From Catenaria anguillulae PL171 (taxonomy: Eukaryota; Blastocladiomycota; Blastocladiomycetes; Blastocladiales; Catenariaceae), in NCBI GenBank assembly GCA_002102555.1, contig MCFL01000115.1, positions 1-64,000 of the forward strand: 64,000 nucleotides of DNA. Direction: 5' to 3'. The notes beneath the pieces are model-generated. The model was not told the origin of the DNA, searched no databases, and saw only the letters and a program-made list of their open reading frames with translations. Within the stretch, counting starts at the first letter, position 1. Each line of letters opens with the position of its first letter. This document shows positions 13,166 through 47,302 of the stretch, piece by piece. Both the position numbers and the translations under genes were made by a program.

Positions 13166-13635
13166 GATTCTGGATTGCAGGAAGCGTGTTTGCCTAGAGT
13201 GCCAAAACTTTCCGTCATGTATGTTTCCATCGCACGTGAATGCGTTGGCAAGAATATTAATTACATAACACGTTCGTGATGAGAAAATCGGCTGATCAGC
13301 GATCAGAGTGAGGAAAGTGATCAGATGCCCATGTTGGGTGCTGTAACTCATGATCAACGCCGACCTCGTGTTCAAGTCCAGTGCCCACAGTGCGCCGCAA
13401 TCCATGTCGCGAATTCATCCCAAAAAGGCAAAGTTGACCGCGCCTCTGTGAAGCGGTCTTGACGACTCGGACGACGACGACGGACTCCGACGAGATACAT
13501 CCCGCCAACCCTCAATGCAAGTATTGCAACATCCTTACATAATACCCTAGACTGTCCCGCATCCCTTTCTCCCCGGCGGCCACCCACTCGACCCAAAGAT
13601 CGATCACCGCCCCCTTTCCTTTCCAGCAACGAATC
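13166..13635. other. Divergent intergenic region
   Basis: This 470-base gap separates the J-protein gene (-) from the Cys-rich membrane protein gene (+) and must hold both promoters. No conserved site was recognised. Confidence 0.4.
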
Positions 13636-26690: not shown

Positions 26691-26762
26691 TGAGGCGTGA
26701 GTGATTCGAACACCCAACCTTCTGATCTGGAGTCAGACGCGCTACCGTTGCGCCAACGCCCC
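26691..26762 (-). tRNA. tRNA-Trp (CCA)
   Basis: Cloverleaf on the minus strand. The acceptor is GGGGCGT pairing with ACGCCTC (one G-T), with discriminator A. The anticodon stem is TCTGA/TCAGA around loop CTCCAGA, giving anticodon CCA. The T loop contains the B-box core GTTCGAATC. There is no intron. A run of seven T on the minus strand follows directly (26684-26690) as the Pol III terminator. Confidence 0.93.
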
Positions 26763-27290
26763 TTGGTGTGTTTTCCGTTCACAAAGTGGTTCCTTATATA
26801 GTTTCAACCGCCGAAATGTGGCTCGTGAAAGGAAAATCGCGCCGTCACCTTCCCAACGGAAAGTGCGAGGAACGAAAACAAATAACAACGAGAAGCCAGA
26901 GTCGCGCAGTCGATTGAAAGATCTATGCTGATGGAAGTGCGCTGAGTTGCAAACGAGTTCTGGGAATTGTTTTTCAATCATTCAGGTCGTTTGCATGCAT
27001 GCGCCACGCTGTACAAGCGAAGATCGGCGAACCCGTTGGTCCCATATCGATCGGCAGCAGCCAAGTCATCACCGCGGTCATGATTAATGCGTGTACTTGA
27101 AATGAAGAAAGAATGATTCACGTAGGCCAGCTGTTTTGAAATACGAAAACACTCGAGGAACTGAAATCGCATACTCGCTGCCAACCCAACTACGCCTCGG
27201 TTATTGCCTCACCCAAACACACGATACCGACGAATCATCACGCATTGCACCGATCACCTCAGCACTCCAACAACACAAACGCGCACCAAC
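26763..27290. other. Intergenic region between tRNA-Trp and the proteasome gene
   Basis: About 530 bases. No gene or repeat recognised; the right end is the promoter region of the proteasome beta5 gene. Confidence 0.4.
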
Positions 27291-28342
27291 ATGGCCACCC
27301 TCGACCTGTCGTTCCTCAACCCCGCCCCGCACTCTGCCCTGTCGCTCGCGCACTCTGCTGCGTCCTCGCTCGGCGGCCTCCCTTCGTCCGTGCACTCGTC
27401 GGCTGCCCCCGGCACACTTGATCTGTCCTTTGCGGTTGCCGGCGCAACTGGCGATCCGGCCGGATTTGCCCTCGCCAATGTCGGCACTGCCAAGCCATCC
27501 GGTGCGGAGCCCTCGACGGGTGCTACTGGTGATGGCCCACGCGTCAAGATGGTCCACGGCACGACCACGTTGGCGTTCAAGTACCAGGGCGGCGTTGTGA
27601 TTGCCGTGGATTCACGTGCGTCGGCGGGCGCGTATATTGCGTCACAGTCGGTCAAGAAGGTCATTGAGATCAACCCGTACCTGTTGGGGACCATGGCCGG
27701 TGGTGCGGCAGATTGCCAGTATTGGCAGCGTGAGCTGGGCAGGCGGTGCCGGTACGCTCTTTATGGTTGCTTTTTTTTACGTTGCTAAGCGACTCGTGCT
27801 CTGATGCGGCTCTCGTATCTCGGCGTATGTTTAGCCTGTACGAGCTTCGCAACAAGGAACGCATCTCGGTTGCAGCCGCGTCCAAGTTGCTCGCCAACAT
27901 GGTCTACTCGTACAAGGGCATGGGCCTGTCCATGGGCACCATGGTCACGGGCTGGGACAAGCACGGACCCGGCTTGTTTTACGTCGACAGCGATGGTCAG
28001 CGCCTGACGTCGGACTTGTTCTCGGTTGGTTCCGGTTCCACCTTCGCCTACGGTTCGCGTCGTTTACTTTTTTTTTGTCGACCTCGTGCCCACGGCATTG
28101 ACCCGAACCTGCCTCATTAATCAGGTGTGCTTGATGCCGAATACCGCTGGGACCTGACCCGCGAACAAGCGCTTGCTCTGGGCCAGCGTGCCATCATGCA
28201 TGCCACTCACCGCGACGCCTTTTCGGGCGGTGTGTGCAACCTGTACCACATGGGCGAAAACGGCTGGGAGAAAATCTCGTCCAATGATGTTTCCGAACTG
28301 TACTACCAGTCAAAGACCGAGCCCGTGCCGAGTTTGTTGTAA
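27291..28342 (+). CDS. PRE2: 20S proteasome subunit beta5 (chymotrypsin-like)
   Basis: Three exons (27291-27751, 27835-28052, 28125-28342), 298 aa. This is the catalytic beta5 subunit of the 20S core. A propeptide of about 88 residues ends HG, and the mature N-terminal nucleophile Thr starts [20 protein letters not shown]. Asp17, Arg19 and Lys33 of the active site are all present (AVDSRAS, SVKKV). The family signature [20 protein letters not shown] crosses the first intron, and [20 protein letters not shown] follows. The GSGS(T)FAYG segment crosses the second. Introns are 83 and 72 nt. Length and propeptide size match yeast Pre2. The downstream neighbour is the transposon insertion, beginning about 250 bases after the stop. 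Confidence 0.95.
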
Positions 28343-28591
28343 GCCTGACAAGAACCCTAAGGTCGCGTCAACGAGTTGCACAGGTGGTAAACCTCTGGAT
28401 GGTCGATTATTGCGCTGGGTCAGTTGTCCGTCATCTTTCTTGAACTTGAATGAATCTCCCTCATCAGGCATTTTGTTATGTGGAACGCTGGCGCACCAGC
28501 TCCCTGTTGCCACTCTTCACATTAACGAATCCTCCTCCACCCGACACTCTGGCGAGTCCGGTGAAATTCGAATTGGCGAAGAATAACACGG

Positions 28592-28608
28592 TCCCGTGGC
28601 CCAGGGGC
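28592..28608. repeat. 17-bp target-site duplication of the LINE, left copy
   Basis: TCCCGTGGCCCAGGGGC, identical to 40098-40114. The two copies flanked the LINE before the DNA transposon inserted at the LINE 3' junction. Confidence 0.8.
28602..28608. repeat. 7-bp target-site duplication of the DNA transposon, left copy
   Basis: CAGGGGC directly abuts the left terminal inverted repeat. The same heptamer directly abuts the right one at 34988-34994. Confidence 0.85.
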
Positions 28609-28679
28609 TATGGGTGGACACTAAGCCACCCCGTTCCAAACTTGTCGATCGTCGTGTTTCCGTTTCGCGTTTTTCGGTT
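28609..28679 (+). repeat. Left terminal inverted repeat (71 bp)
   Basis: Perfect reverse complement of 34917-34987. The outer 25 bases contain a small palindrome, GGGTGG then ACACTAAG then CCACCC, which could be a transposase binding or hairpin site. The inner part is rich in CG and T (CGTGTTTCCGTTTCGCG). Confidence 0.95.
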
Positions 28680-28919
28680 TTGCGCTTTTAAGAGAGAACG
28701 ATGTAAACATTTTGCATGTGACGGACAGTTTGCGACGATCAGAAAGCCTGACAATGAAGTCAAAGCCGACCAAGGCGCATACCGACGCATCTCGTGTACT
28801 CACGTGATCCTGCCATCATCTCGGCCACCAAACTGCCTCTGGATTCAAGCACTCCCGCCAGCCGAATCATCATTCAGTGCTCGACTTCGACATTAGCAGA
28901 ATCCAATGCGCCATGAAAA

Positions 28920-30650
28920 ATGAATGCCTTCCGCGATTCCGATTATATTCAAGCCATCGCAAGCGTCGTCACTGATGAGCAATTCCTCGACTTGTGCCAA
29001 GTATTCAAGAGCGACTCCGCCATCTCTGAGCACCTGAAGTCGTTATCAACCTCCAGCCGTACGTCGCCCCCATCTTGGTCCCATCTATGCACCCCAATCC
29101 CTTACGTGTTGGCTCTATTGCTGTTCCCAGGCGGCCTTTCTCCTCATAATGTTGGCCGACACCGACGCTCCCTCCACTATTCCTATCGGCTCCCATCTAC
29201 CGTCCTGTCGATTGCCTCTCGTGAACGCCTGCACGCCCTCTGCGAAGAAGGACTTACCGACTCCCAGATCGCCGAGCGCCTGAGTGAGCTCACTCCGACA
29301 ACCGCTGGACTTTCCACTCGCTCCATTGCCCGGGCTCGTCATCGTCTCGGCATTCGCCGCTTGATCCAGTACCCGTATAATTATGTCCGTGCGATGGTCA
29401 AGCTGCACTCCAAAGGGGTACATTCCGCGATTCCCTTCCAATGGCCGCTGCCGTACGTCTTGCTAACCATTTCCTCGCATTGCTCAGTTTGGCCTTCGCG
29501 CTGGCCGCAACTTTGTCACTGGCTATCTTTACGATAAAATCAAAAAAAGGCTTCCTGAGCGTCAAGTCGGTCGCGCGCTCAAGGAGCTCTTTCCGGAGCA
29601 TCATCAACTGCGGGTGCGATACGCTCGTAACCGCCTCGTCCGACGCCCTATCGAGACCTTTTTTGTCGGCGAGCAGCTTCACATTGACCAGAACGAAAAG
29701 CTGCAAGCGTATGTGCCGATTTCTTCATCGCATCACCTGATCATATACGTACGCTCGCTCACCCGTCCTTTTCCAATGCAAAGGTATTCGGTATACCTGT
29801 TCGCTGGTGTCGATGCTCATAGCCGTTATCCGGTGTTCCACGTCGCCGCAACTCGCAAGACCGCCATTATTCCGTACATGGCTTGGCGGTATGACATTAC
29901 AGCTTACCACTTCAGATGAATCCATTCTTTCAAGGCTCACATGCTCCACGTTTCCTGTGCTGATTCAGATGTGCGGTGCGCAAGTACGGCTTATGGTTCC
30001 GTGTCATTGGTGACAAGGGTTCCGAAAACGTTCTCGTTGCCCACTTCCAGCGCCAGATTGGCAACGTCATTTTGCCGCCACGGCGCCGATACGACGATCC
30101 ATACCGGGCTTTGCCGTCCACTTCCAACGTGCGCGTCGAGCGTTTCTGGGCATACTCAAACACAGCTGTTGCTCGCCCATTGCTGCCCACGTTGGACCAC
30201 CTCCGCGACCACGGCTACTTTGACTTGTCGGATCCATGCGAACGCTACTGCGTTGCTGAGGCAACGTGCATTGTGGCCGCTGTTTTGATTCGCCGCCTCA
30301 AAGGCCAAGTCACACACCATTACGTCGCTCGGGTCGGTCGTCCCGTGGAGATTTTCAACCAATTCCGCGGCAACGTCGCAGTGCCCGAAGAGATGCTTCT
30401 TAAGGTGGAGGACGCTGTTGCAGCATATCCGGGTGAGGTGGCCATGGACTGTGAATTGGAGGGTGACCCGCTGCGTGGGCATGCACATTTGCAAGAGCAG
30501 CGCTTTCAACTTCTTCAAGAGCAGGCTGATGTTGAGTTGATTGCAGATGATCTGTTGGCGTCCTACCATCCAAGGTACTCACAATCATTTGCCGATTTTG
30601 TCCTCTCTTTCATTACAGTGACGCAGCAACTCGTTGAGGACTATCTGTAG
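28920..30650 (+). CDS. DDE integrase-like transposase
   Basis: Five exons (28920-29058, 29131-29417, 29488-29708, 29784-29888, 29969-30650), 477 aa, introns 70-80 nt. The N-terminal half has a helix-turn-helix (LHALCEEGLTDSQIAERL, then STRSIARARHRLG). The catalytic core follows the retroviral-integrase fold: first Asp in LHIDQNEKLQAY, a strand with GVDAHSRYPVFHVAAT, second Asp in VIGDKGSENVLV, and Glu in SNVRVERFWAY. This is the integrase-core family whose members read WHIDGNHK, GGIDGFSR, SDxGxEN and NQRIERLW. All three acidic residues are present and no frame is broken once introns are removed. A further 44-nt intron near 30575-30618 is possible and would shorten the C-terminus. It lies inside the 71-bp TIRs, so it is the likely mobilising enzyme. 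Confidence 0.85.
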
Positions 30651-32104
30651 TTGTTGTTGCATCTTCCAAGTAAATACATGCTTTCACTCACTCATGTTTG
30701 TATGTCCGTGCGTTGCCAAATGTCAACATGATCAAGCCTTTCTCACCCAGACCCGACCACTCGCATCCCTTGAAGTAGCAATCAGGTCCTTGTCTGATGC
30801 TGAGGTCTGAGTCGTCAGCCCTGCTTAACATGGAGCGACGAGATGAGGCATGGTTGAGAATGTGGCACGTGAGCCAAGTTCAACGCGGACCATGGTCGCA
30901 TGCGACGAATGGCGACATTGGGCCAGACGGAACGATGGATAAGTTGTGGAAGTGGTATCCGTCACGGTGGAACAGGCAATGGGAACTTGATTTGAATGCG
31001 TTTGAGCCACGTCCCATGAAGTCGCCCATGGGAAAAAGCTTGGAACTGAGGTTGAAGCTGGATCTCAAGTGCAAATGGCACAATCAGTCGGAGACGATGG
31101 CCACCTACGTCCACGATGGACACACTTGCGATGAACGGAGCACAGGTGGGCAGCGGCGACATGGCAAAGCACTGCGATCGCAACAGGACTCCGTTTTTCG
31201 GACAGCACGACCTGGGCACGACCCGGGACATGCTCCGAATCTGCCGCGGGCCCTATCACGGCTTCATCTGCCGCTGTGGTCGCCAATGGAGACTTCCTTG
31301 GCCCCACCGTTACCCCGTTACCCGTTTTACTGACGCCCGCTGCTTGGCTCGGCTCCTTCTGCGGCAGCGGGAGCCGCTCGCTGTAAATGTCGTCGTCTGG
31401 CACGTAACGGCTAACAAACCCGGTGGACGCCGGGCGCACAGTAAAGAGAGCCATTCCATGACCCCCTCGTAGGCCCGCAGTGAATTGCCCAATAGGACCG
31501 CCGTTGGAGGAAGGCAGATCGCGCGGGCCGAGTGTTCCCAGGGTGCGAGTCAAGGATTGGGAGGCAAGTGTATGGCGGGTCTAGGATCGCAGTAGCCGGT
31601 GTGCCAGTTCGAATGCAGGTAGTATTAACGAGTTCGCATAAGTGGGTTTTGTGTACCATCCATGGTAAGATTGACCGTGATCCGTGATGCATGAGATGCC
31701 TTTCATGGTTCATTTCATGGTGAAATCACGAATTTCTCACGCATCACCCCACGCTTGTTCTCATGGATCATTCTCACTATTTTTGCAAGGCGGTGTGGTA
31801 CTACTGCGGAAGGAGATTACATCTGATCTGAATCATTTTAAAAACCCAAGTGTATCAGCAGATGTGGGCATTAAAAACCATTACCGAATGGAATATGTAT
31901 GCAAATGGGCTAGCTAGGAATACAGTTGCAACAGTATAAAGTGATTGAAACAAAATGGGAACGAAAAGGAAAAGCAGGTTCATGAGAGACGAAAACGTGA
32001 AAAGAATATCAAAATGAGAACAGCAAAGGTCGCAAGCATCAAAGCGAATCAGAGCAAGACACTGGGCAATACACCTCCACTCATGGCACCGCATCGCCAA
32101 CACC
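30651..32104. other. Internal non-coding part of the transposon
   Basis: About 1.45 kb between the convergent stops of transposase and cargo gene. An open frame at 30797-31333 (+, 178 codons, Trp-rich) has no recognisable motif, and several opposing frames overlap it, so I do not call it. The region should hold both 3' UTRs. Confidence 0.4.
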
Positions 32105-34156
32105 TCAATCGCCACCTGCCTCCTTATTCGGGAACTCAATCTCTTCCTCCTCGGCTGACTTGCCTCCACCTTGCTCTTTGGCTGACTCATCATCACTTGA
32201 CAACAAGTACGACTCAAGCGACTGTGTCCCCTCAACCGACATGCCATTCTGCTTGCCACCAAGAGCGCCCAAAACTGCGCCGCCGCTGATTTCTTGAACA
32301 CGACCACCATTCACGCGACCACTCGTCAATCCACCAATGTTGCCCGACCGACGGGAAAGTGAACGAGTGGGGGCCGGGGTTTGCCATGACTTGAACGTCT
32401 CCTCATTCTCGGCAACAGACGCGACAAAATCTTCAAAATGTCCAACCTCGTCCACACGCAAGAATCCGGTGCCGCCATTATCCATGGGCAGCAGGCGCTC
32501 CCACACGCGCTGGGCATCCTCGGGATCAAGCGACTGCAGGTACGCCATGTATGGGCGGAAGTGGAGGGTGGCCAACGATTCACCCCATGAATCTTGGTTC
32601 CCTGGGTAGGCGCTCAGGCCAGCCGTGCAATTGTCGCGGCAACGCGTCATGGACTTGGTTGGTTTGACCAACAAGCAGGTCGAGCACAAGTGTAGGTGAC
32701 AGTCATCATGGGCATACAGCGGGTAGGCCAGCAGCTCATGGCAACCATCACACTTCAGCATGCGCATGGACGTCTCGACGGCACGAAAGACGAGGTCGTG
32801 AAGGTGATGGTATGCACTGGTTGTTTCGAGCGCGCGGGACACTTCGCTTGACGCAGACACGAGCTTGCTGGCGAGAGAGAAAAACTCGTCGACGGCGATT
32901 GTGCTGATGAGTGCAGGAACAGCCAATGAGAAAAAGGGTCACACGTGTACATTGGATTGGATGATGTACCATGGGCCAGATGCATACGGCGTTTCCGACG
33001 ACGCCGGGGCGTCGTGCCTGCTTGCCAAATCAGACTTCTTGAACACATAAACAACCATGTCGAGCTTTGCCTTCTTGCTCGCGTTGGCAGAAGCCGCACG
33101 CTTGCCCAAGGTCTCGTCTGGTGAGCAGAGATGTAAAGAATTGAGCGTAAGCTGTGGAACAGACAAAGGTATGGCTAATGGGAACAGCGACAACACACCA
33201 ATCAAATTGGACGGAAGAAACGAGGTGGGCCGCCTTTTGCGGCTGTGGGGCGCCTCGAAAGACAAAAGCAACTGTGCTGGGTTCACTTGCTCGCCCGGGT
33301 ACACCTCAGCCCAAACCTCAACCAATCGGTCAAGGTTTTCTGGATCTGTCAATAGATCCAGAAAGGTCATGGCGTCCGGCTTGCGATAGGCATTGAAAAT
33401 GATCGGCGGGTTGTTGGAGGAGGCGGGGTTGGCGGCACCCATCTCAATGAGGTCTTTTGCTTGCGGAGTTGGGGGAGGAGAAGCGGTCCGCTTACGTGAC
33501 AGGCGCTGCTTGACCGTAGGAGCCCTGCCATAAAGATCCTCTGGCATTTCCGACGCCTTGGTCGGATGGCGACGGACAACCGTCATTTGCGACTTGGAAG
33601 CAGTAGGCGCAGCGGATCGCTCACGGGATTGCGTCGAGTTGGACGACTTGCTTGAAGCAGGTGGTTTCTGAGATGACGACAACAATGACGATGACGACGA
33701 GCGGGAAATGTGCAATGAGTACGACAAGTGCGACGAGGGCGGCGAGGGGGCAGGGTCAGAGTCGTTGGGTACTTTCAAACAGAGCAGCAAATGAAAAGTC
33801 AGTCAAGCGGCCAAAGAAAAAATAGAGCGGAAGGAAGGAAGGCCGCACCCTTCTCAATAATGTGAATTGATTCATCAAGCGCCTCGGCGGCCTCGACAGC
33901 GACGTCCATGTCTTTAACGGAGTACTTCTCGCCTTTGACAATGATGACGTCAGGATCCCAGGCGGCCAAAGCCTCGAACACATCGTCGCCCCCTAACGAG
34001 CGTGGCGACAGAGAAAAAGGGAAGTGAAATCAACATTGGGGAGAGAGAGAAAGATGAGAACCGCGTACTAACGGACAAGGACTCACGGGGGGAGCGGCGA
34101 AAGTACTTGGCCATGTCCGGGTAGACAGCCAGTTCGTACGAGTGTGTCGGCGACAT
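32105..34156 (-). CDS. Transposon cargo protein with RING-like zinc cluster
   Basis: Five exons (34156-34087, 33992-33849, 33771-33199, 33117-32970, 32903-32105), 577 aa, introns 66-94 nt. The N-terminal 70 residues (MSPTHSYELAVYPDMAKYFR, later WDPDVIIVKGEKYSVKDMDV) look folded. A Ser-rich and basic disordered stretch follows, then a conserved-looking segment around LLTDPENLDRLVEVWAEVY. Next is a cysteine/histidine cluster LKCDGCHELL, DDCHLHLCSTCLL and RCRDNC. Its spacing (CxxC, about 13 residues, CxHxxCxxC, then CxxxC) resembles a RING or treble-clef finger. The C-terminus is acidic, Gly/Ser-rich. It could be a DNA-binding accessory protein of transposition or an E3-ligase-like host modulator. 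The family is not recognised. It is transcribed from the right end of the element toward the transposase. Confidence 0.75.
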
Positions 34157-34916
34157 TCCTTGATTTTGCGGCTATGATACAGTACGTGAATGGAAGAAGG
34201 GTGGCGGGTGCGCGAGAACAAGGATATTTCAATTATTTGGGATGGGAGAGATCGGGACGGATCGGGGCAGCTGGAGCGTTTAAATGGCGAGCCGGGAATC
34301 AGAATCAATTAGGGGACGATGGGCGAGCACGTCTGGAAACACTCTGTCGACCTGCCCAACAGGACTCGAGGAAGGTCGGACAGGACCATTTCCGCTTGTT
34401 TGTTTGGTCGGCTGCCAGCATGTGATCGAGTTGTCATGTCAAGAAATAGCAAGATTCACGTGGCCGGTATCCAAGTGGTCCACGCCAGTGTGCTTGGCGA
34501 AGTGAGCTGAGGGGTGGACGGCGGGCGCGCTGGCGAGGTTAACAGCACAGGCAGCAGCGGCGCGAGAAAGAGCAGACGGCGTGAGACAAGGCAGACGGCG
34601 TGAGGAGAGCGGTCGGTGAAAGTGGAGGTCGTTTCAAACGGCTGCGGCCGTAGAAAGGGGACGGTCCCTCTTGACAGCGTGGGCTGAGTCGATTGGGACG
34701 TGGGACGTGTGTGTGAATGGGGGCGGCGAGGGTATGGAGAGAGCATGGCTTGACTTCGTCTCGTGGCATATCATAGTTCAATCGGCCAGTGGCCGCGAGA
34801 GGGGGCAATGTTTGTTTTGTGTGGGCGAAGGCAAACTGCCGGTTGTTGAAATCCAAGGCCTCTCATCCGCCGATCCAACGTTCAATCAAATCGATCTCAA
34901 AAGCTCAAAATCTCAG
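34157..34916. other. Right internal end of the transposon
   Basis: Non-coding 760 bases between the cargo start and the right TIR; likely the cargo promoter. No motif recognised. Confidence 0.5.
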
Positions 34917-34987
34917 AACCGAAAAACGCGAAACGGAAACACGACGATCGACAAGTTTGGAACGGGGTGGCTTAGTGTCCACCCATA
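34917..34987 (-). repeat. Right terminal inverted repeat (71 bp)
   Basis: Perfect reverse complement of the left TIR; its outer end (34987) abuts CAGGGGC. Confidence 0.95.
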
Positions 34988-34994
34988 CAGGGGC
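34988..34994. repeat. 7-bp target-site duplication of the DNA transposon, right copy
   Basis: CAGGGGC, matching 28602-28608. It is followed at once by the 3' terminus of the LINE. Confidence 0.85.
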
Positions 34995-37900
34995 GTAGAA
35001 CACAGAGTTTATTGAACTGGAGCACAATTATGGTAAGGAGTCAACAGAGAAAACGAATAAAGAACAGATTGGATGGGGCAACCCTCGCAACAATAATGGG
35101 CGCGCGCGCATACTCTTGGACCAACCCGCAGACCCCACTGCTCACCGACATGCCCAGCGGCACCTTGACGAACCAAACAAGAAACGGAACGACGTGAAAA
35201 GAAATAAAGAAGGGGGAAACGAAGCAATCAGACCGGAAAGGAAGTGATTGGGTGGCGGCAACATGGACCCGAGGTCAGGAAACAGAAGAAAAAGACAAAA
35301 CCAAAACCGAAACCAAAACCAAAACGAAAAACAAAAAGAACAATACTCATCAGTCGCGCACACAGCGCCCTTCCCTCTCCCACTCTCTCTCCCCTCCCCA
35401 CTCTCTCCTTCCACTACCTCCACTCACCACAAAGTGTCTAACCCGTGCATAGCACGAGTTACTCGGGAGTCTGCGTCGCTGCGCGTCGATGCGCCGCCAG
35501 TGTTGGGGCACTCGCCGTCCTCGTGTACGAGCAGGGAGAGGCGGCAGAGCGAGCAGAATCCAGCGTTGAGTCGTCTGTTCTTGGTTGCGCGTGGACGGCG
35601 CGGCTCGGTCGGGTCGCGCGGTGCAAGTTGGTCACGTTGCGGCGGCAGGGCGTCGCGGTTGGGTGGTGCCAGGTCAAAAAGCCGCTGGCAGTGGTCGGTC
35701 CACACCTTGGCGTGGAGCGCGTGGCCGAGGAGGGCGGCAATGCCACCAGCGAGGCGGCGCTTGTCCTTGGTCTGCTTGAGCAGTGGGTACACGACCTGGA
35801 ACTGCTCGAGCGACAAGGCGCCAGTGAGGACGCGGGGCAGCATGGCGGGCGTCCACCACAGCAACAAGATGGACGCGGCGGCGGCGGGAGGGTTGGCGTA
35901 GCCGCGCTCGGCAAGGATGCGTGACAGTTCTTGGTGGGCGTACTCGCGGGCTTCGTCGCGGGCAGGCGCGGTTGCAGGGCACTCAAGCCAGTGTGCGCTG
36001 TCATCGGTCGCGTCGCATGACGGGCATCTTGGGCTCGGGAACTTGTGCGGCCACCACTTGTGGTTGCGCGCTCTCGTCGGCAGCATGCCCACGAGGAACC
36101 GCGAGCGAAAGGCAATGAGCTTGTTGTGCTTGCGCGACGTGCGACGGTCGCGCCCGTTCCCACCCGCGTGCATGACCAGCGCCATCACACCCACATCCAC
36201 GCCGGCCAACTCGATGCCTGCGGCAGTGCTCTTTGACGCCAGCCACGCATGCACCCGCTGGTGCCACGCGTACTTGATGAACTTCCGCGGGTCTGTGCTC
36301 ACCACGTCCCCGCCGAACGCGACCACGTGCCGCATCTTGCGCCGGCCCAGCCCAAACGCCGGGTTGACCTTTGCCCGCGGGAGAGATGACTCGGCCCCTG
36401 CGTTCGCCAACCGATCCGCCGACTCATTGCCCACGTTGCCGGCATGCCCCTTGACCCAGTCGAGCGTTGCGCGCAGGCGCCTCTCGCGCACCACAAGATC
36501 AATCACATCCCACTCGAGCGACCCCACAGACCGCACGAGAGAACGCAAACCGGGCTTGCGCGAACCCAACACACGGCCAGCCGCCTTCACAGCCGCCATG
36601 GAATCGGACAAAATCTTGACGACCGACCCGACAGGCGCCAAACACACCGCAGCCAGTACGCCCCACTGCTCCGCACGCGTTGACGACACTAGGCCATGAA
36701 CCGGCCTCAACGACACCATATACGCCGCATCTTCATCAGCGGCAACTCGCTCCTCGTCTCCGGCGGCGATCTGCACCATCTCGCCGTTTTCCTCCTCATC
36801 CTCCACTCGCGCGCGGTCCCAGAACTCGGTCTCCACACGCGCCTTGTCCTCGTCCACACCCGTACCCACGAATGCGTGCACACCTGCGCCAATGGGCCGG
36901 GCGCCGCCACCCTCTGGTGTCTCCATCACGGACCCGTCCGTGTACAAGGTCACTGCGGCGCCATGTGCGACCGAGGGCAACGTGACGCCGTCACTATGCA
37001 CAGCGATTGATCCTGCGCCAGCTGCGAGGTAGCGGCTAAGCGTGAGCGCCGAGGACGGGTACAGCCATGGGCGGAACGGCTCCTCTGGCTGGGCCAAGAG
37101 TGGCCACGGCAGGTCGCGGATTGGATGGCGGCGAAGTTCTTGCACGCGGCGCAGCAGCGACTCGTGGAAAGGCATCCACGAGTTGAGGTTGAGCTTGGTC
37201 TCGACGTGTCGCCGGTAGACGGGCTGGCCCTCCGGCGCGAATTGGCTTGCCCAATACAGGCCGTACTTGCGTAGTTGCCTGACAACCGCCGGGTTGCGGT
37301 GGGCGAGCGAGTCGTCCTCGCTGAGGAAGAGCGGCGAGTGATGGCAGCCCGGGTCGACGGCAAATTCGCCGTGCGTGTCGACGACCGAGATGTTGGCAGC
37401 GTGCATGATCGGCAGCAAGTTGGCGAACCAGCACAGGGTCGAGGACGGGGCTTCGGGCGTCGGGTACGCGAGTGGGGAACACGGCATGGCCAGCGCCCAT
37501 GCGGCGAGTCCAAGGCAAACACGAGCAGGTGTACCAAGCGGGCCGCGGTCGTTGAGCATGACTGCCAGCTCTGTGACATGGTGACGCACAATCAGGTTTG
37601 AAAGTGAGTCAAGATCGTGAATCGACGGGTGGTGAATCAGAGCCGAGGACGTGGACCGATCGACGCCGAGTTTTTGCCGAATCAACGACCGAAACTTGGC
37701 ATCCCATGTATCAATCACGGTGGGCGGCGGCACAAAGTTGCTGGTGCGGTACAGCGCCGCCGGGTAAATCACGTTGTTGGCAAAGTAAACCGCCATCTTG
37801 CCCGTGATTGCCTTGCTCTTGAGGAGCCCATGCCCCTTGCGGAGCTCGTTCTCAAACGCCTCGCGCGCTGTGCGCGGCCAGTCCTCTGCTGACAACCACA

Positions 37901-40097
37901 CGCCCAGATACCGGAAAGGTTGCCGCCCATCCAGAAACGGAATCGGCTCCCCCTCAACCGTCAGCGGCTCGCCGCGGGCCTCGCCCTTGCAATTGAGGAC
38001 CAACATGGCACCCTTGGACGCGTTTGCCTTGACCGCCGTGACGCGGTTGAACGATGACACGATCCGGAGCAGTCGCTCCATCTCAAAACGGTTTGGCGCA
38101 AAGAACGCCGCGTCATCCACGTACGCCATGGCCGCCAACTGCGCGGCGTCGACCACCTCGCCATCCGCTCTATGTGGTGCGGTCCTCGATGGTGCCGGCT
38201 CTGGGTCGCCAGTCTCACCCTTGCGCGCGCACAACCTGACGCCTGGGCACGAGCGGTTGACCTTGCTCAGGAGCACGTCGTAGAAAATGGCCCACATGAG
38301 TGGCGACTCGACTGCACCCTGCGGGATACCGCGATGCATTGGGATCGGGTCGGTCAGGCCGTATTCGGTCTTGATGCGTGCCGTGCGGCCTGCGAGCATC
38401 GAGTCACAGTACAGCTCCACAAACTCGTCGGGCACGCGGATGCGCTTGAGGGCAAGGCGGAGGATGTGGTGTGGAACCGTGTCGAACGCCTTGGTCTTGT
38501 CCTCGAAGTACACCCAGAGTTGGGTACGGCGCGCGCGGGCCTGTGACATGGCGGCAGACAAGGTTGCAATGGGCAGCGTAGTACTGGTGCCGGGCAGGAC
38601 GCTGTGGCGGGCGCCAAGGAGCACGTCGTGGTTGGTGAGCACCTGCATCATTCGGGTGGTGAGTACCTTCATGAACAGCTTGCTGGCGCACTCGAGCAGC
38701 GTGATGGGCCGCATGTCGTCGGCTGACCCAGCGTATCCGACGGGCTTCTTGGGCACAAGCACCATGATACCCTCCTTCCATGCCCGCGGCACCCGTCTGG
38801 TGTGGAGGATGGCGTTGAACAACTTGAGTAGTGCCTGCCGGCAACCATCACCCGCGTCCCGTAACAAGCGGTATGTGAGGTTCGACTCGCCGGGCGCCTT
38901 GTCCAGCCCCACCTGCGCGAAAGCCTGGTCCAAATCCTTGGCCGCCATTTCCGCTGGCAAATCGGTCCAGATCGTCCCATCCACATCGTCCCGTCCGGCA
39001 AACTCGGGCTCCCACTCATCCAGATCGTGGTAGTTTTGCGGCCCAAACCACTTGCTCGCCTCATGCCAGATGCCCTCCTTGACCTCCTCTGGCTCTCGCG
39101 TCAACCGTTTGCGGCCGTCGCCCATGTCGCGCATATGGAACGAAATGCACGAGTCCGGGCGGAAGCGCTCCTTGACCCGGCTGATGACCGATGGCAGATT
39201 GGTGAGGAAATCCTCATTGCGCTTGTCGATCCGGGCTGCAATCCTGGCGGCTCGCTCCTGGTTGAACTCGACCGCAATCGCCATCCGGAGCACAGAGAGG
39301 GCTGCGCGCGCGTACTTGCGGTCGTCGGCGAAGTCGGCTCGAGGGCGGAGACCGTGCGACTCAGCGAGCTGGACGGCGCCTGCCGGTGCGGCGCCGCGGC
39401 GGCTGCGCCTTGACCACTGCTTGATTTCGGCGGCGGCCTTGTCGAGCGGATTGGACGAGTGGCGTGGATTTGCGAGGAGCTGGGAGAAACGCAGTTTGAC
39501 GGGGAGAGTATCCTTTGCTGAAGCTTGCAAGCCGTTGGCAAAAGAAACCCACGCACCGTCGACATTACCAGCCGCGAGCTGGGCATCAAGGTCGGGAGCA
39601 AGCCGCAGGTCAGATGTGCGCCGGTAATCCTTCCACTGCTCGTCGGTCGCGGCAGCTGTGTCGATGTGTTGGGAACGTGCAGCCCTGAGGGCGGCAACAA
39701 CTCGCTCTTGCTGAGCCCAGTCAAGCTGCTGGCCGAAGTTTGTGCAAATAGTCACCGCAGCGTGGTCTGTAAAGAAAGGGCGCGGGAGTGCGGGCCATGA
39801 CACTGTAGCCGAGTTTGTCGCTGCAAGCGTTTCGCCGCACCCATACCAGAAGTCGAGGCGGTTGGCGGCCTGGTGGGCATTGCGACGGGTCACGTCCAGG
39901 CAGTCATGCGCCGCAGCAATGTCGGCAAGCCCAATCTCAAGCGCGAGCATGTCAACTAGCGCCTCTGCCCCGGCAGCGTTTGGGTTGAGGTCGCCGCCGA
40001 GTAGGATGCGGTGGCCGAGGTCGCGGGCGCGTGTGATTTCGGAGCGCAACCAGGCAGTGAGGTCGGCGACGATGGAGGGCGAGCCGTGGGGTACATA
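34995..40097 (-). mobile_element. 5'-truncated LINE (non-LTR retrotransposon) inserted in tRNA-Arg
   Basis: About 5.1 kb on the minus strand, flanked (before the later DNA transposon arrived) by a 17-bp duplication of the tRNA-Arg A-box region. The 3' UTR (35423-34995) ends with AATAAACTCTGTGTTCTAC and no poly(A) tail. The 5' end is truncated inside the endonuclease domain. The remaining single ORF is unbroken, so the insertion is young. The EN-RT-RNase H order belongs to I/Tad/R1-like groups; exact clade assignment would need a tree. Two extra bases (40096-40097) sit at the 5' junction. Confidence 0.85.
35424..40094 (-). CDS. LINE polyprotein fragment: endonuclease, reverse transcriptase, RNase H, zinc finger
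   Basis: About 1,550 codons open from the 5' junction to a stop at 35424-35426, with no ATG near the start because the 5' end is lost. The endonuclease C-terminal half is present (GYVPHGSPS, then ILLGGDLNPN and FTDHAAVTI). RT motifs are KEGIMVLVPKK, RPITLLECASKLF, FEDKTKAFDTV (motif A), RGIPQGAVESPL (motif B) and AYVDDAAFF (motif C). RNase H has all four acidic residues: LYTDGSV, TRAEQWG, ILSDSMAAV and GNESADRLANAG. A C-terminal CCHC-like knuckle reads CPSCDATDDSAHWLEC. No ORF1 is present in this copy. It is not expected to be mobile by itself because the 5' end is missing. Confidence 0.9.
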   Translation of the reverse strand, partial: VPHGSPSIVADLTAWLRSEITRARDLGHRILLGGDLNPNAAGAEALVDMLALEIGLADIAAAHDCLDVTRRNAHQAANRLDFWYGCGETLAATNSATVSWPALPRPFFTDHAAVTICTNFGQQLDWAQQERVVAALRAARSQHIDTAAATDEQWKDYRRTSDLRLAPDLDAQLAAGNVDGAWVSFANGLQASAKDTLPVKLRFSQLLANPRHSSNPLDKAAAEIKQWSRRSRRGAAPAGAVQLAESHGLRPRADFADDRKYARAALSVLRMAIAVEFNQERAARIAARIDKRNEDFLTNLPSVISRVKERFRPDSCISFHMRDMGDGRKRLTREPEEVKEGIWHEASKWFGPQNYHDLDEWEPEFAGRDDVDGTIWTDLPAEMAAKDLDQAFAQVGLDKAPGESNLTYRLLRDAGDGCRQALLKLFNAILHTRRVPRAWKEGIMVLVPKKPVGYAGSADDMRPITLLECASKLFMKVLTTRMMQVLTNHDVLLGARHSVLPGTSTTLPIATLSAAMSQARARRTQLWVYFEDKTKAFDTVPHHILRLALKRIRVPDEFVELYCDSMLAGRTARIKTEYGLTDPIPMHRGIPQGAVESPLMWAIFYDVLLSKVNRSCPGVRLCARKGETGDPEPAPSRTAPHRADGEVVDAAQLAAMAYVDDAAFFAPNRFEMERLLRIVSSFNRVTAVKANASKGAMLVLNCKGEARGEPLTVEGEPIPFLDGRQPFRYLGVWLSAEDWPRTAREAFENELRKGHGLLKSKAITGKMAVYFANNVIYPAALYRTSNFVPPPTVIDTWDAKFRSLIRQKLGVDRSTSSALIHHPSIHDLDSLSNLIVRHHVTELAVMLNDRGPLGTPARVCLGLAAWALAMPCSPLAYPTPEAPSSTLCWFANLLPIMHAANISVVDTHGEFAVDPGCHHSPLFLSEDDSLAHRNPAVVRQLRKYGLYWASQFAPEGQPVYRRHVETKLNLNSWMPFHESLLRRVQELRRHPIRDLPWPLLAQPEEPFRPWLYPSSALTLSRYLAAGAGSIAVHSDGVTLPSVAHGAAVTLYTDGSVMETPEGGGARPIGAGVHAFVGTGVDEDKARVETEFWDRARVEDEEENGEMVQIAAGDEERVAADEDAAYMVSLRPVHGLVSSTRAEQWGVLAAVCLAPVGSVVKILSDSMAAVKAAGRVLGSRKPGLRSLVRSVGSLEWDVIDLVVRERRLRATLDWVKGHAGNVGNESADRLANAGAESSLPRAKVNPAFGLGRRKMRHVVAFGGDVVSTDPRKFIKYAWHQRVHAWLASKSTAAGIELAGVDVGVMALVMHAGGNGRDRRTSRKHNKLIAFRSRFLVGMLPTRARNHKWWPHKFPSPRCPSCDATDDSAHWLECPATAPARDEAREYAHQELSRILAERGYANPPAAAASILLLWWTPAMLPRVLTGALSLEQFQVVYPLLKQTKDKRRLAGGIAALLGHALHAKVWTDHCQRLFDLAPPNRDALPPQRDQLAPRDPTEPRRPRATKNRRLNAGFCSLCRLSLLVHEDGECPNTGGASTRSDADSRVTRAMHGLDTLW

Positions 40098-40168
40098 TCC
40101 CGTGGCCCAGGGGCTAAGGCGCCTGACTACGGATCAGGAGATCGGAGGTTCAAATCCTCCCGGGATCG
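40096..40168 (+). tRNA. tRNA-Arg (ACG), rebuilt at the LINE junction
   Basis: Anticodon stem CCTGA/TCAGG with loop CTACGGA gives ACG. D arm, T arm (GGAGG/CCTCC, loop TTCAAAT), A box (TGGCCCAGGGG) and B box are intact. TTTT follows discriminator G at once (40169-40172). The acceptor is TATCCCG against CGGGATC, so pair 1-72 is T-C, a mismatch. The first two bases come from the LINE junction rather than the original gene, whose 5' end GGTCCCG now lies at 28590. Promoter boxes are internal, so it can still be transcribed; 5' processing by RNase P may be affected by the mismatch. Confidence 0.9.
40098..40114. repeat. 17-bp target-site duplication of the LINE, right copy
   Basis: TCCCGTGGCCCAGGGGC, identical to 28592-28608; it supplies tRNA positions 3 onward and so regenerates the gene. 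Confidence 0.8.
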
Positions 40169-41996: not shown

Positions 41997-43859
41997 CTAA
42001 ACAACCACCCTGGCCTTGACCACCACGACGCCTCTGTCCTGGTCCACCCATCCCGGAAACACAACCGCCCTGACGACCCTGGCCACTTGCACCCCACTCT
42101 CGCTCTCACGTTCAAAGTACACGCTGGCCACCTCGTCTCTCCACTCTGCCCCTACCTCTGGCCACGCCAGCTTGAACCCAGGATACACCTTCCCAGTCCT
42201 CACCAACACATTGCGCATGGCATCCGCCAACTCGCCCACGCTCGCGTTGGCCGGCACTTGCTCGTGACCCCTAAGGACCTGCCACACGTGCACCATGACG
42301 GCCGCCATGTACTCTGCGCGGCACGCGCGCACTTGGGCTACGGGCACGTTGGCGGGCAGCGCCGTGCGCGCATGGGTTGTGGCCGAGTGTTCCAGAGACA
42401 GGAACTGCGCGTTCCAAGCGTCCGTCAGCGATTGCAGGGACACGTCACGGTCCATGGATGAGGGGCTTGTGGGTACTGCGGTGGATGTGGGTGCACGTGG
42501 GAATGGGTGCAGCGTGACGTTGGGAAACACGTGCGCCGGCATTTTCACGAGCGTCGTCGCGGTCTGTGGGGATGCGGGCACTGGCGACATTTCAGTGTGG
42601 CTGACAGAGGAGGCGGGCATGCACGTGACTGACGCCCGACGCAAGCGCATGGGCGATTGCGAGTCGGAAAGCTGGCGCGAGAAGCGCGCTTGTCTGCGCC
42701 TGTAGATGACGGCTGCAGCCGCGAGCTGTGGCAAAGCTAATGTGAGTGTTGAGTTGAGGGGACAGGGGAAGAAGGGAGATGTACGTACGAAAGCAATCCC
42801 AATGATGGGGACAACAATCAGAGCGGTCAAGGCCATCGTGCTCATTCCCTTGCCCGTTGCCTCGTCCGCAATAGCACCTCTACCTGATCCGGATGGATTT
42901 TCGCCATTGGATCCCACCCCACCTGATCCATGGCCGGTCTCGGCACCAAGTACACCCTCATTTAACAGGGCAGGCACCACGACCTGATCTGTTCTGGACT
43001 TGTTCTCACCCTTGCACGTAATAGTAAACGGAACTAGGCGGCTGACCTTGTCTGCACCCAAGCACGTCATGTTCGTGTGGAACTGGAACCACGAGCAAAA
43101 CTTCTCTTCTTCCGCCTCAATACACCCGTGCAAATGCCATTGACGAGAACCGGGTATGAAGGTTGTATTGACCATGGATTTGCGTGGTGGGCAGGTGGCA
43201 CAATCCTTGTGGAACGCGTCTGTCGAGACTTGTGGTACCAGCGGTGGGCCGTCGGGAAAAGTGCAGACGGGCGATGAAGGACTCGTTGTTCCAAGCGGTG
43301 GATCAAAGCGGACGTGCCGGTAGGAAAAGGGCGGCGGTGAGGGTGCTTCGGGCTGGTTACCAGTAGCGTAGTGGGTCCAAGCCAGTGTGAATCCTGGCTT
43401 GAGCGAAGGCTCCTGAGATTGTCTGGCAGGACACCACCAGTCGACGTGCCAGTTGGCGGATGAGTTGCCATTGTGACGGATGGGCGTGAGTTGAGTGATG
43501 CATCCGGTGAGCTTGAAGGACGTGCGTGCCGTGACTTCTTGGTTCCAGGGCAGCTTGGCGTTGGCTTGGATCGCGACCGACAGCAGCGAGTCGACGGCGG
43601 CGACCTGGCCGTTGGTGAGCCGTGAGGGCGTGACGGGCGGGAGCGGGCAGTGTGGTTGCTGCTGTGGCGGAACCCCTGCGCCCGCACCGGGACCACCTGA
43701 GCCGAGGTTTTCTCCGCTGCCACTACTACCTCCGGCGCCGTTGTCGGGCGTCGCGGAAGTGGTAGGCAGCGGCGATGACGATGCTAGGGTGGAGGCGGTT
43801 GGCGCCGGCGCCGGCGATGGCGGGACCACCGAAGACGAGGGCAAAGGGGACGATGACAT
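41997..43859 (-). CDS. Single-pass membrane protein, Cys/Trp-containing ectodomain
   Basis: Two exons (43859-42789 and 42725-41997); the 63-nt intron (GTACGT to CCACAG) keeps frame, giving 599 aa. Order: Ser/Pro/Gly-rich N-terminus, a putative extracellular domain with about eight Cys (CPLPPVTPS, SFKLTGCITQLTP, DWWCPARQ, CATCPPRKS, FCSWFQFHTNMTCLG), a Gly/Asn stalk, one TM split by the intron (MALTALIVVPIIGIAF then LAAAAVIYRRRQ), and a cytoplasmic domain of about 210 residues. That last domain looks folded (SLQSLTDAWNAQFLSLEHSA to the end). No signal peptide is visible at MSSSPLPSSSVV, so a first exon may be missing. The family is not recognised. Confidence 0.6.
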   Translation of the reverse strand: MSSSPLPSSSVVPPSPAPAPTASTLASSSPLPTTSATPDNGAGGSSGSGENLGSGGPGAGAGVPPQQQPHCPLPPVTPSRLTNGQVAAVDSLLSVAIQANAKLPWNQEVTARTSFKLTGCITQLTPIRHNGNSSANWHVDWWCPARQSQEPSLKPGFTLAWTHYATGNQPEAPSPPPFSYRHVRFDPPLGTTSPSSPVCTFPDGPPLVPQVSTDAFHKDCATCPPRKSMVNTTFIPGSRQWHLHGCIEAEEEKFCSWFQFHTNMTCLGADKVSRLVPFTITCKGENKSRTDQVVVPALLNEGVLGAETGHGSGGVGSNGENPSGSGRGAIADEATGKGMSTMALTALIVVPIIGIAFVRTSPFFPCPLNSTLTLALPQLAAAAVIYRRRQARFSRQLSDSQSPMRLRRASVTCMPASSVSHTEMSPVPASPQTATTLVKMPAHVFPNVTLHPFPRAPTSTAVPTSPSSMDRDVSLQSLTDAWNAQFLSLEHSATTHARTALPANVPVAQVRACRAEYMAAVMVHVWQVLRGHEQVPANASVGELADAMRNVLVRTGKVYPGFKLAWPEVGAEWRDEVASVYFERESESGVQVARVVRAVVFPGWVDQDRGVVVVKARVVV

Positions 43860-44189
43860 TACTGTGACGTCGACGTTATGAAGGATGTGCTGTCAGGAAC
43901 AAGATGTACAGAGGGAGAGACGGCCGAGGTTCACCGCCCGCCGCCCAGCCCGCCGCCACCGACGTCGCCGCCAGTCGGTTATGCGCGTGGGCCACTCTTG
44001 CATTCTGTAGGTTGATCTGAAACACGGGAAAACACGCGAAAAATCACGGAAAACACCAAAGATCCCTTCGATGAATGATCGCCAACCTTCCACTCATCAA
44101 CGCCAAGTTTGAATGCCCATCGCCTTCAGACATCGACCACCGCTCTCTGCTCCACGCCCATGCACATGCGACTCCCATCAACCACAACC
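43860..44189. other. Divergent promoter region
   Basis: 330 bases between the membrane protein gene (-) and the UMP-CMP kinase gene (+); no specific element recognised. Confidence 0.4.
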
Positions 44190-45156
44190 ATGTTCCGCGC
44201 CGCCTTCTCCCGTTCCACCACCGACACCCTGCGCCGGCAGGCCACCTCTTCGGCCTCGGCCTCACGCTCGAGCCTGCGCCGCACCCTGTCGACGCCCGCG
44301 GGCGAGCAAGGCGCACCCAAGCCCTCGTCCAACGCCGGCCTTTGGGTTGCCCTTGCCGCGACTGCTGCTGGCGGTGCGGGCTACTACTATGCCACGCGCG
44401 AGCACCCTTCGGAAACTCTTGCCAAGCTCAAGGCCAAGAACAAGGCTACCGAGGAGTCGCCAGTTACAGCCTCCTTGCGCCCGTTGCCCGCCAACTCGCC
44501 CTTCAAGGTCAAACCCACCGTCATCTTCGTTCTTGGCGGGCCCGGCGCTGGCAAGGGCACGCAATGCGCGCGCTTGGTTGCCGACTACGACTTTGTGCAC
44601 TTGTCTGCGGGCGACTTGTTGCGCGAAGAACGCAACCGGGCCGGGTCCGAGGTGGGCGAGCTCATCAACACGTACATCAAGGAGGGCAAGATTGTGCCCA
44701 TGGAAATCACCATTGGGTTGTTGCGTGATGCCATGGTGCGCAGCGGCAAGGACAGGTTCTTGATTGATGGGTTCCCGCGCAAGATGGACCAGGCAGAGGC
44801 GTTTGAGGACACGGTGGCTGGCGCAGATTTCATCTTATACTTTGAGTGCCCCGAAAAGGAGATGGAGAGGCGGTTGTTGAAGCGTGGGGAGACGAGCGGC
44901 CGGTCCGTTCCTCTGTTTTCTCGATCCTTGTCGAGCATCCTCACTCATTCTTTTTTTCTTCAATCTCAACAGCGTGGATGACAACATTGAGTCGATTCGC
45001 AAGCGCTTTGTCACGTTCCGCGACACCTCCTTCCCCGTCATTGACAAGTACCGTTCCTTGGGCAAGGTGCATGAGGTGTCGTGCTTGGACACGCCAGACA
45101 AGGTGTATTCCCAAGTCAGGGCCATCTTTGACAAGATGTTTGCGAAGTCGGCCTAA
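44190..45156 (+). CDS. URA6: UMP-CMP kinase with N-terminal targeting/TM extension
   Basis: Exons 44190-44902 and 44973-45156, 298 aa. It phosphorylates UMP and CMP with ATP in pyrimidine nucleotide synthesis. The nucleoside monophosphate kinase core has the P-loop [14 protein letters not shown] (about residue 115), the NMP-binding [12 protein letters not shown] and [28 protein letters not shown], and the lid [12 protein letters not shown] across the 70-nt intron. The core reads UMP-CMP kinase (Ura6) rather than adenylate kinase because of the short lid and [14 protein letters not shown]. The first about 95 residues are Arg/Ser/Thr-rich with a helix [18 protein letters not shown]: a presequence plus inner-membrane-type anchor, suggesting mitochondrial location. 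An in-frame upstream ATG exists at 44109. Confidence 0.88.
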
Positions 45157-45404
45157 GGATTTAGGTTGGCACATGTTCCCTAGACGAGATACTTAACGAG
45201 CGTTTCGTTGGGAGGTACATGATGGGAAGTATGGCGATGACTACATATTTAGCTCTTATCATGAACACTTTGATTCTGACTTTCAGACTCTTGACTCTTG
45301 AGTTTGTATACCACGAACCACAAGGGGAAATGTGATAACTTCACGTCGTCGGTCCTCACTCTGTATTTTCTAAAAAATCATATCAGTCAAATGCAACTTT
45401 CAAA

Positions 45405-46217
45405 ATGACAACCAGCTACTCTGTTGCCAGTGCCCGCAAACTGTACCCGTCGCACATCCCGACCCAAGCCTGGGAAAAGGCGTTTCTGACGGTGGCCTGC
45501 TCGCTCAAGGCCATCCACGATCCGCTTCGTGCTGGTACCTGCCTACACCCGCTTGCCATTGACATGATGATGAATGACCTGACCCGACTCTTGTAAAATG
45601 TAATAGATATGGTCGCAGCCGTCGGCGAAACCCTCGGCCCGCCTGCCCTTGGCCGCATGCGCCTGCAACTTCTCGCGACCCCAACGGGTCGGCGCATCCT
45701 GCGTGACCGTCCACTCATCTCGTCACAAACCTTATCGCCCACGTACTTGTCGTCTCTGTCGCCGTCGACCTTTGGCGGCGCCTACTACCACCACTTTATG
45801 CACCCGCACGGGTACTTGCCCGAATCGCGCGCGCCCGTGCGATTTGTGGACGATGGCGAGCTGGCTTACATCATGTTGCGATACCGTCAAGTGCACGATT
45901 TCTGGCACGCGCTCACGGGATTACCGCCAACGGTCGAGGGTGAGCTCGCACTTAAAGTGTTTGAGTATGTGCAAACGGGTTTGCCCATGACCTTGTTGGC
46001 GGGACTCGTGGCGCCAGTGCAGTTGGGCAGGAGGCAGCAAAAGAGGTTGTATGGCGAGCTGGTGCCCTGGGCCATTCGGGCGGGCATCAAGGCAAAGCCG
46101 TTGATGGGGGTGTACTATGAGGAGTGGTTGGAGAGGGATTTGAACGAGATGCGCCGGGAGTTGCGGATCGAGGTGGCGCCCGAGATTGAGGATTCGACAT
46201 TGACCAATGCCAAGTGA
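45405..46217 (+). CDS. COQ4: Coq4, coenzyme Q biosynthesis protein
   Basis: Exons 45405-45534 and 45607-46217, 246 aa, intron 72 nt. Coq4 organises the ubiquinone biosynthetic complex on the matrix face of the inner membrane and has been linked to C1 decarboxylation/hydroxylation. Diagnostics: YPSHIPTQAWEKAFL, AADMVAAVGETLG at the splice (RA-DMVAA), RRILRDRP, the zinc-binding HDxxH as RQVHDFWHALTGLP (about residue 139), and VEGELALKVFEYVQTGLPM. Only about 15 residues precede the conserved start and they make a weak presequence (MTTSYSVASARKL). It follows the UMP-CMP kinase gene on the same strand 250 bases downstream. Confidence 0.93.
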
Positions 46218-46306
46218 AGAAGAAAATTCAATTGTCAGAGTTGTGTCAAGTTTTATAGTTATAAGTTTGTGATCTACTACGTAACAAGAAGACAAGACAT
46301 TTCAAC

Positions 46307-46932
46307 CTAAGCCTTGACCTCACCGTCGGTCGTGGTTGTTGTCGCCTCAGCAGCAGCGGCAACTGGTGAAGGAGAAGCAGCAGCAGCAGCAGCACCCTTT
46401 TTGCGGTGCTTGAGGTTGCGCTGAATGACCTGGCCCTTTGCTTGCTGGATAAACGAGTAGGGCGATGTGGCGGGTTGAGCGTGGTGGACGAGTTCCCACT
46501 TGTCGCGGTAGCCGTTGGGAATGAGCTTTGGGATGGCGCGCGAAGTGTGGTCGACGAGGTGGCCGTCGTAGTACTTGTAGGCATAGACCTCGCCCTTTGT
46601 TGGGTTAGCCTGAGTGTTGGGAGTCGCAAGTGAGACACAAACTCGATCGAGAAGGAAAGGAAAAAAACAAGGGCGTATCATACGGGATCGATCTTTGAGG
46701 AGACAATCTTGTAAAAGGAGGCGGGCGGGTAGTTGCGGTCGGCGTACTTTGTGGGGCGGACAATGGCGCCGACGCCGTTGAGGGGCTGGCGGACGAGCAG
46801 GTCGTAGAGGTTGCGGGGCTGGGCAAAGCCTGGCTTGGTGACGGGCAGGCGCAGGGCAGCGAGGGCCTTTTGGATGGCCAGCTGGGCGTTGGAGGTGGCG
46901 GCGGAGGAAGACATGTTGTGCATTGGTTTCAT
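46307..46932 (-). CDS. Mitochondrial small-subunit ribosomal protein, mS34-like
   Basis: Exons 46932-46684 and 46609-46307, 183 aa, intron 74 nt. The block NLYDLLVRQPLNGVGAIVRP, SFYKIVSSKIDP then GEVYAYKYYDGHLVDH follows the pattern of mS34/MRPS34 (LLxRLPLxGxGxxVxR, xYWxLTRVxPD, GKAWGxLTxxG). The C-terminal tail is basic (RNLKHRKKG) followed by an Ala/Thr-rich run encoded by simple repeats. The start may be at the first Met or at MSSSAATS six residues on. It is divergent from the m-AAA protease gene with 370 bases between them. Alternative: another fungal mitoribosomal protein of the same fold. Confidence 0.6.
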
Positions 46933-47302
46933 GGATTCATGGAGTCGGGTTTAGGTTTGTGTGAGTGAATGAGAGCGTATTGAAGATTGAAAAGCCGCAC
47001 TGCACTGGCTTTTTGGGAGGTGGATCGACGGCCCTTGCGTTGTACCTAGGTGTGGTGATGCAGATCGTTTTTGGCATGACGACGATGACGGCCGACGGAA
47101 CGGATCGGGCCGTATTATGTATGGCATTTGTCATGTATGTATGTGGTCGTGGTCATGGAGCGTGCTCTGTATTGAGTGAGTGAATGACTTGGTTGTACTC
47201 AGTGAATTAATAGTATTACTCGATGCATCTTCACCTCTCCCTTTGACATTCTTCATTCCCCCCGTCTCATTCATTCATTCATTCTAAGTCAAAAAGTCAG
47301 TC
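46933..47302. other. Divergent promoter region
   Basis: 370 bases between the mS34-like gene and the m-AAA protease gene. CATT repeats (about 47267-47283) lie just upstream of the protease start. Confidence 0.5.

Follow-up and report, generated by a model that had tools for sequence, protein, structure and literature searches.

LINE insertions in the A box of tRNA genes in Catenaria anguillulae, with a DNA transposon at one of the junctions

The stretch of DNA analysed here (the window; 64,000 nucleotides, C19:1-64000) comes from the blastocladiomycete fungus Catenaria anguillulae PL171, the genome of which spans 41 Mb in 457 contigs (designated C). Within the window, a tRNA-Arg(ACG) gene is split by a long interspersed nuclear element (LINE; this family is termed LINE-A). 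The LINE is bounded by a 17-bp duplication of the tRNA gene, and a DNA transposon with terminal inverted repeats (TIRs) was later inserted at the same junction. A preliminary description had proposed this arrangement, and it is confirmed here. The features are as follows; RT denotes reverse transcriptase.

28590-28608, plus strand: remnant 5′ half of the tRNA-Arg gene (GG and the 17-mer), the same as bases 1-19 of the intact tRNA on contig C417
28592-28608, plus strand: LINE target-site duplication, upstream copy, 17 bp
28602-28608, plus strand: DNA-transposon target-site duplication, left copy, CAGGGGC
28609-34987, strand undefined: DNA transposon, 6,379 bp, with TIRs and a 7-bp duplication
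28609-28692, plus strand: left TIR, 84 nt, the outer 71 matching the right TIR exactly
29482-30647, plus strand: transposase gene P0001, integrase core rva_4, in two exon-like pieces
34904-34987, minus strand: right TIR
34988-34994, plus strand: DNA-transposon duplication, right copy, CAGGGGC, which is the end of the LINE-adjacent tRNA piece
34995-40097, minus strand: LINE-A, 5′-truncated, with the element's 3′ end at 34995; this 3′ end is common to other copies
35424-40097, minus strand: LINE open frame with RT and RNase H, ending at the element's truncation point
40098-40114, plus strand: LINE target-site duplication, downstream copy
40096-40168, plus strand: rebuilt tRNA-Arg(ACG) called by ARAGORN, its first two bases, TA, coming from the LINE

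The two copies of the 17-mer (28592-28608 and 40098-40114) have no third counterpart in the window at up to two mismatches, and shuffled sequences lead one to expect 0.04. The first copy is preceded by GG, and the second lies inside the tRNA-Arg(ACG) that ARAGORN calls at 40096-40168, so that coordinates and gene call both agree with the preliminary description, including its claim that the duplication recreates the tRNA downstream. The minus-strand LINE that it placed between the copies is borne out by the frame open from 40097 down to 35424, which holds the RT and RNase H domains. The DNA transposon at the LINE 3′ junction was likewise correctly identified, as CAGGGGC directly adjoins both TIR ends (28602-28608 and 34988-34994). 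By itself this 7-mer is not rare (nine in the window against 12.3 expected); the weight lies in its adjoining both ends. The proposed order of events also stands: the LINE entered the A-box/D-loop region of the tRNA-Arg gene first and the DNA transposon came second, because the downstream LINE duplication is contiguous tRNA and contains no transposon-end sequence. The reverse order predicts such sequence in that duplication and was rejected.

A search of the same genome for an uninterrupted counterpart, as the preliminary description had proposed, led to C417. Among 40 scored tRNA-Arg matches in the genome, some of them partial, an intact tRNA-Arg at C417:47604-47676 (L001) was picked, which matches the window's tRNA at 100%. 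The left flank of the window adjoins its 5′ side (97% over 593 aligned nt) and the right flank directly follows it (94% over 836 nt); with longer flanks, identities are 98.3% over 1,524 nt and 96.4% over 1,571 nt, and both flanks meet inside the tRNA. Collinearity extends further on both sides, with window 43000-50000 matching C417:50513-57547 at 97%, and window 8000-15000 matching C417:27183-34013 as two separate segments (96% and 90%). C417 is therefore a collinear homologous stretch without the insertion, i.e. an empty site. It is read as the other haplotype, although it may instead be a segmental duplication. Window 8000-14920 is also identical (100%) to C24:550203-557114, compared with 90-96% to C417 over that part, which points to overlapping or duplicated contigs. 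Near the insertion, the window carries a tRNA-Trp gene (26691-26762) and an open frame (27204-27788) that presumably resembles a proteasome beta subunit.

The insertion in the window is one of a series. When the genome was queried with the 22-base 3′ terminus of the LINE (up to three mismatches) and the flanks of every match were read, 21 matches were found, compared with two for a reversed-pattern control. A flank was counted as tRNA when its last 18 bases agreed at 14 or more positions with one of 46 tRNA sequences from the fetched loci. By this measure, 17 of the 21 termini adjoin the 5′ half of a tRNA, and the tRNA is interrupted each time at base 19 or 20 as numbered in the ARAGORN call. 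The chance level is 35 in 2000 random draws from the fetched, tRNA-rich loci, and 94 in 18,200 sites in the window with tRNAs masked. For the window copy, the flank was taken from the left of the DNA transposon, and only its last seven bases physically touch the LINE. The break falls directly after G18-G19-N20; both G18 and G19 are present in all 17 junctions, and A14 in 16. In each of the 17, the LINE is antisense to the tRNA. At 16 or more of 18 positions, the isotypes are Arg (6), Ser (4, two with a near-equal flank), Leu, Trp, His and Gln (1 each); three further junctions score 14-15, namely a second Trp-like one, C414 and C298. LINE-A is thus specific for the tRNA A box, in at least six isotypes, and is a target-specific LINE in the sense of using one defined site in a repeated gene family (17 of 21 termini). 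The 17-mer is not part of the element's own 3′ end: in other copies, the LINE stops at the same base and is followed by different tRNA genes.

Several observations weigh against this interpretation. For four of the 21 termini, a position at a tRNA is not clear (C212, C91, C70 and C13:146155), the last having a tRNA-Gln-like flank with a 3-base gap, which was counted as a miss. Two insertion pairs (C13:471807 and C192; C298 and the L044 locus, which have flanks in common) may be duplicated loci, so that 17 overstates the number of independent events. Some of the 46 tRNAs compared are themselves rebuilt copies. Finally, the longest LINE-A frame scanned (L057) gives no Pfam match to an endonuclease domain at E ≤ 0.01. 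A T-arm insertion was also considered for C212 (L065:288, C212:263187), where the flank looks anticodon-to-T-arm-like by eye; it was rejected, as Rfam gave no tRNA in the 88 bases.

The element itself is a non-LTR retrotransposon, with an RT of the LINE/R2 type: the frame matches Pfam RVT_1, and its matches in the PDB are R2 and LINE-1 ORF2 proteins. Further traits are a fixed 3′ end, variable 5′ truncation, target duplications of variable length and the absence of long terminal repeats (LTRs). At 5,103 bp, the window copy is 5′-truncated by comparison with C33 and C13:140k, the two longest copies extracted, which measure about 7.36 kb. Its identity to other copies is 99.7% over 3,663 bp (C400) and 99.5% over 1,345 bp (C357), and falls to 97.5% (C13:140k), 91.8% (C418), 90.0% (C33) and 87.9% (C13:146155); younger and older copies therefore coexist. 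At least 74 protein relatives were found at E ≤ 1e-3 (among the best 8000 candidates). Among the matches listed, the nearest are environmental proteins (62, 46 and 42% identity) and proteins of Blastocladiella emersonii (37 and 42%). One relative, P0002, which is 62% identical to LINE-A over the searched RT region, carries an Exo_endo_phos domain of the apurinic/apyrimidinic endonuclease (APE) type (E 4.1e-6).

Target duplications are readable at seven insertions and span 13-19 bp: 17 at C19, 19 at C400, 18 at C33, 17 at C13:140k, 18 with one mismatch at C46, 17 at C45:675 and 13 at C357:1131. A long duplication at the His copy (C13:523k) was withdrawn, as the similarity continues further upstream on either side. 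In C19, C400, C33 and C13:140k, the LINE 5′ end borders on a complete tRNA according to ARAGORN. At C46 and C45, the tRNA after the LINE is altered further downstream, and at C357 the 3′ end of another LINE lies next to the duplicate, with a complete tRNA-Trp further on. The quality of the rebuilt gene varies. At C400, where the duplication has 19 bases, the tRNA is restored from base 1; in the window, the 17-base duplication leaves a tRNA-Arg that starts with TA instead of GG and has a non-standard first acceptor pair. The suggestion in the preliminary description that the host loses little is plausible, but qualified by the altered start and by the Rfam tRNA score of the rebuilt gene, 52.5 bits against 59.3 for the empty site; 52.5 is still above the gathering score of 29.

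Because the duplication carries the A box, most of the tRNA is restored and can serve as a target once more. At C45, one tRNA-Arg contains LINE-B, a second family, and a LINE-A fragment in series, with a 16-17 base tRNA piece between them; from its two ends, the intervening sequence would be a single LINE-B copy. At C357, two LINE 3′ ends follow in succession, each after a tRNA-Trp A-box piece.

LINE-B shares 70% amino acid identity with LINE-A, and its ends are also found at a tRNA-Ser (C2) and at an A-box-like piece (C414). LINE-C is a more distant group (36-45% amino acid identity) with 28 genome matches to its 18-base 3′ motif and none for the control. It was compared with a partial tRNA list (at least 61 complete tRNAs; 63 of 1333 candidates scored). 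In six of the 28 cases (C21, C279, C379 (L071), C413 (L072), C128 and C404), a complete tRNA lies 8,167-8,281 bases off on the 5′ side. At C418, C13:81564 and C112 the distances are 5,604, 676 and about 610-670 bases, as would be expected of truncated copies. At C13:518472 (L060:4479-4530), bases 1-33 of a tRNA-Gln are succeeded by six other bases and then by the LINE-C 3′ end; this tRNA piece breaks in the anticodon loop, not in the A box. In seven of the 28, the motif continues into a 19-base flank that is unique to LINE-C ends and was not identified as tRNA. These data suggest that LINE-C, too, targets tRNA genes; this stands apart from the claim made for LINE-A. LINE-C had been considered as a control without a tRNA link, which was dropped when complete tRNAs were found on its 5′ side. 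On C178 and C341, groups of tRNAs recur every 5.66 kb or so, possibly as tandem units.

The TIRs of the DNA transposon are alike at 80 of 84 positions, the outer 71 being identical, and its termini read TAT...ATA. Its 7-bp duplication lies within the A box of the tRNA-Arg piece and extends up to the tRNA/LINE junction. With Pfam at E ≤ 0.01, the transposase P0001 matches the integrase core rva_4 (3.5e-7) and nothing else. By our reading, D113, D153 and E195 would fit an Asp-Asp-Glu (DDE) triad. At E ≤ 1e-3, the protein database contains no match to P0001 other than the protein itself, and the PDB has none at E ≤ 1; diverged relatives in the same genome are 30-60% identical by piece. The element also contains minus-strand open frames (31065-34170), two of which have no Pfam match at E ≤ 0.1. 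The search for other copies of both elements, which the preliminary description had called for, thus gave a divided result: LINE-A has its 21 matching 3′ termini, but no other copy of the DNA transposon was found in the genome with the 84-nt TIR or with a 24-mer at three mismatches. Accordingly, its claim that two unrelated elements target tRNA genes is supported for the LINE only (17 of 21 termini); the position of the DNA transposon may reflect preference or coincidence, because its termini were found at one locus only.

Taken together, these observations make it very probable that a LINE family inserts by target-primed reverse transcription directly after G18-G19-N20, antisense to the tRNA, and that the DNA transposon followed in the window. 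Alongside the observed fixed 3′ junction, single orientation, duplications and empty site, we infer the steps of nicking, priming and second-strand cutting. The LINE endonuclease would nick the tRNA-sense strand directly after G18-G19-N20, where the A box ends, and the freed 3′ OH would prime copying of the element RNA from the RNA's 3′ end. The second strand would be cut 13-19 bp upstream, near the first tRNA bases, so that the duplication would include the A box together with most of the acceptor strand on the 5′ side. The downstream copy would then yield an almost full tRNA gene, internal promoter included, open to new insertion. In the window, the 5′-truncated copy took the place of the first two tRNA bases; an integrase-type DNA transposon subsequently entered the left-over tRNA half at the tRNA/LINE junction, generating the 7-bp duplication.

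A variant that differs only in the recognition step is that the RNA polymerase III machinery (TFIIIC/TFIIIB) recruits the LINE, which cuts where the complex leaves the DNA open. This is possible, if on balance doubtful: six isotypes are used that have only A-box-type bases in common, and recruitment has been proposed for TRE5-A of Dictyostelium (PMC5391098; this and the other papers cited are represented here by excerpts), but the cut at a single base inside the box, unlike the insertion of TRE5-A about 47 bp upstream, would better fit an endonuclease that reads the sequence. It is rather unlikely that the DNA transposon is itself specific for tRNA A boxes, i.e. that it behaves like the Dada elements in another superfamily. 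Its 7-bp duplication does fall in the A box and stops at the tRNA/LINE junction, and in Perkinsus certain Dada families are reported to generate duplications that include part of the A box (PMC3706591), yet it is single-copy by TIR; none of its transposase relatives adjoins a tRNA in the partial list, which, with 63 of 1333 candidates scored, says little. Ectopic recombination between tRNA-Arg genes or a misjoined assembly, conceivable given the multicopy tRNA-Arg (40 scored matches, some partial) and the near-duplicate contigs, is extremely improbable, as both flanks meet at one intact C417 tRNA with collinearity on both sides and the same LINE/tRNA join is found at many loci.

Several known elements resemble one or other part of the locus. 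Like LINE-A, the tRNA-gene-specific LINEs related to NeSL are non-LTR elements with strict specificity for tRNA genes: LIN15_SM (tRNA-Arg), LIN25_SM (tRNA-Glu) and NeSL-1_TV (tRNA-Pro) (PMC4640811). In the excerpt of that paper, one isotype is named per family, whereas LINE-A uses at least six. The NeSL clade has a restriction-like endonuclease, while LINE-A has an RNase H domain and relatives with the APE-type Exo_endo_phos. TRE5-A is, like LINE-A, a LINE that uses many tRNA genes (PMC5391098), but LINE-A inserts inside the gene at a fixed base and not at a fixed distance upstream. Dada transposons insert inside tRNA genes, some of them in the A box, with 6-7 bp duplications (PMC3706591). The window's DNA transposon likewise has a duplication of this size within a small RNA gene, namely CAGGGGC in the piece of tRNA-Arg. 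It differs in its transposase, that of Dada being MuDR/hAT/P/Kolobok/IS256-like and P0001 matching rva_4 alone, and in its 84-nt TIRs, which Dada-U6 and Dada-U1 are described as lacking. Another element, Dewa, is located in a tRNA-Leu spacer (same source). The DNA transposon also has a likeness to IS3EU/GingerRoot, described with TA..TA termini, an integrase-like DDE transposase and duplications usually of 6 bp (PMC10045372). The termini and the integrase-like domain agree, and the likeness is set by these two features and not by a tree; the single copy in the window has a duplication of 7 bp.

LINEs specific for a single tRNA isotype and Dada elements that hit the A box are already published; a LINE with the A boxes of many isotypes as its targets is, as far as found, a new variant. 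No such LINE appeared among the matches listed in the literature search, the coverage of which is thin for subscription journals and Repbase. A broader view, in which a fungal LINE clade has specialised on tRNA genes (LINE-A and LINE-B on the A box, LINE-C on tRNA genes), reuses rebuilt targets and has been joined by an integrase-type DNA transposon that converged on the A-box junction, is speculative and, as a whole, unlikely.

For a LINE that uses a promoter box common to tRNA genes, targets are plentiful and reusable, as the duplication it makes brings the box along and restores most of the gene. How the enzyme picks such a degenerate box, by reading DNA or via TFIIIC, is testable in one system, since a single genome offers the empty site alongside insertions that are truncated, long or serial. 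Beside R2, an enzyme with one fixed insertion point in a conserved multicopy gene would also be useful.

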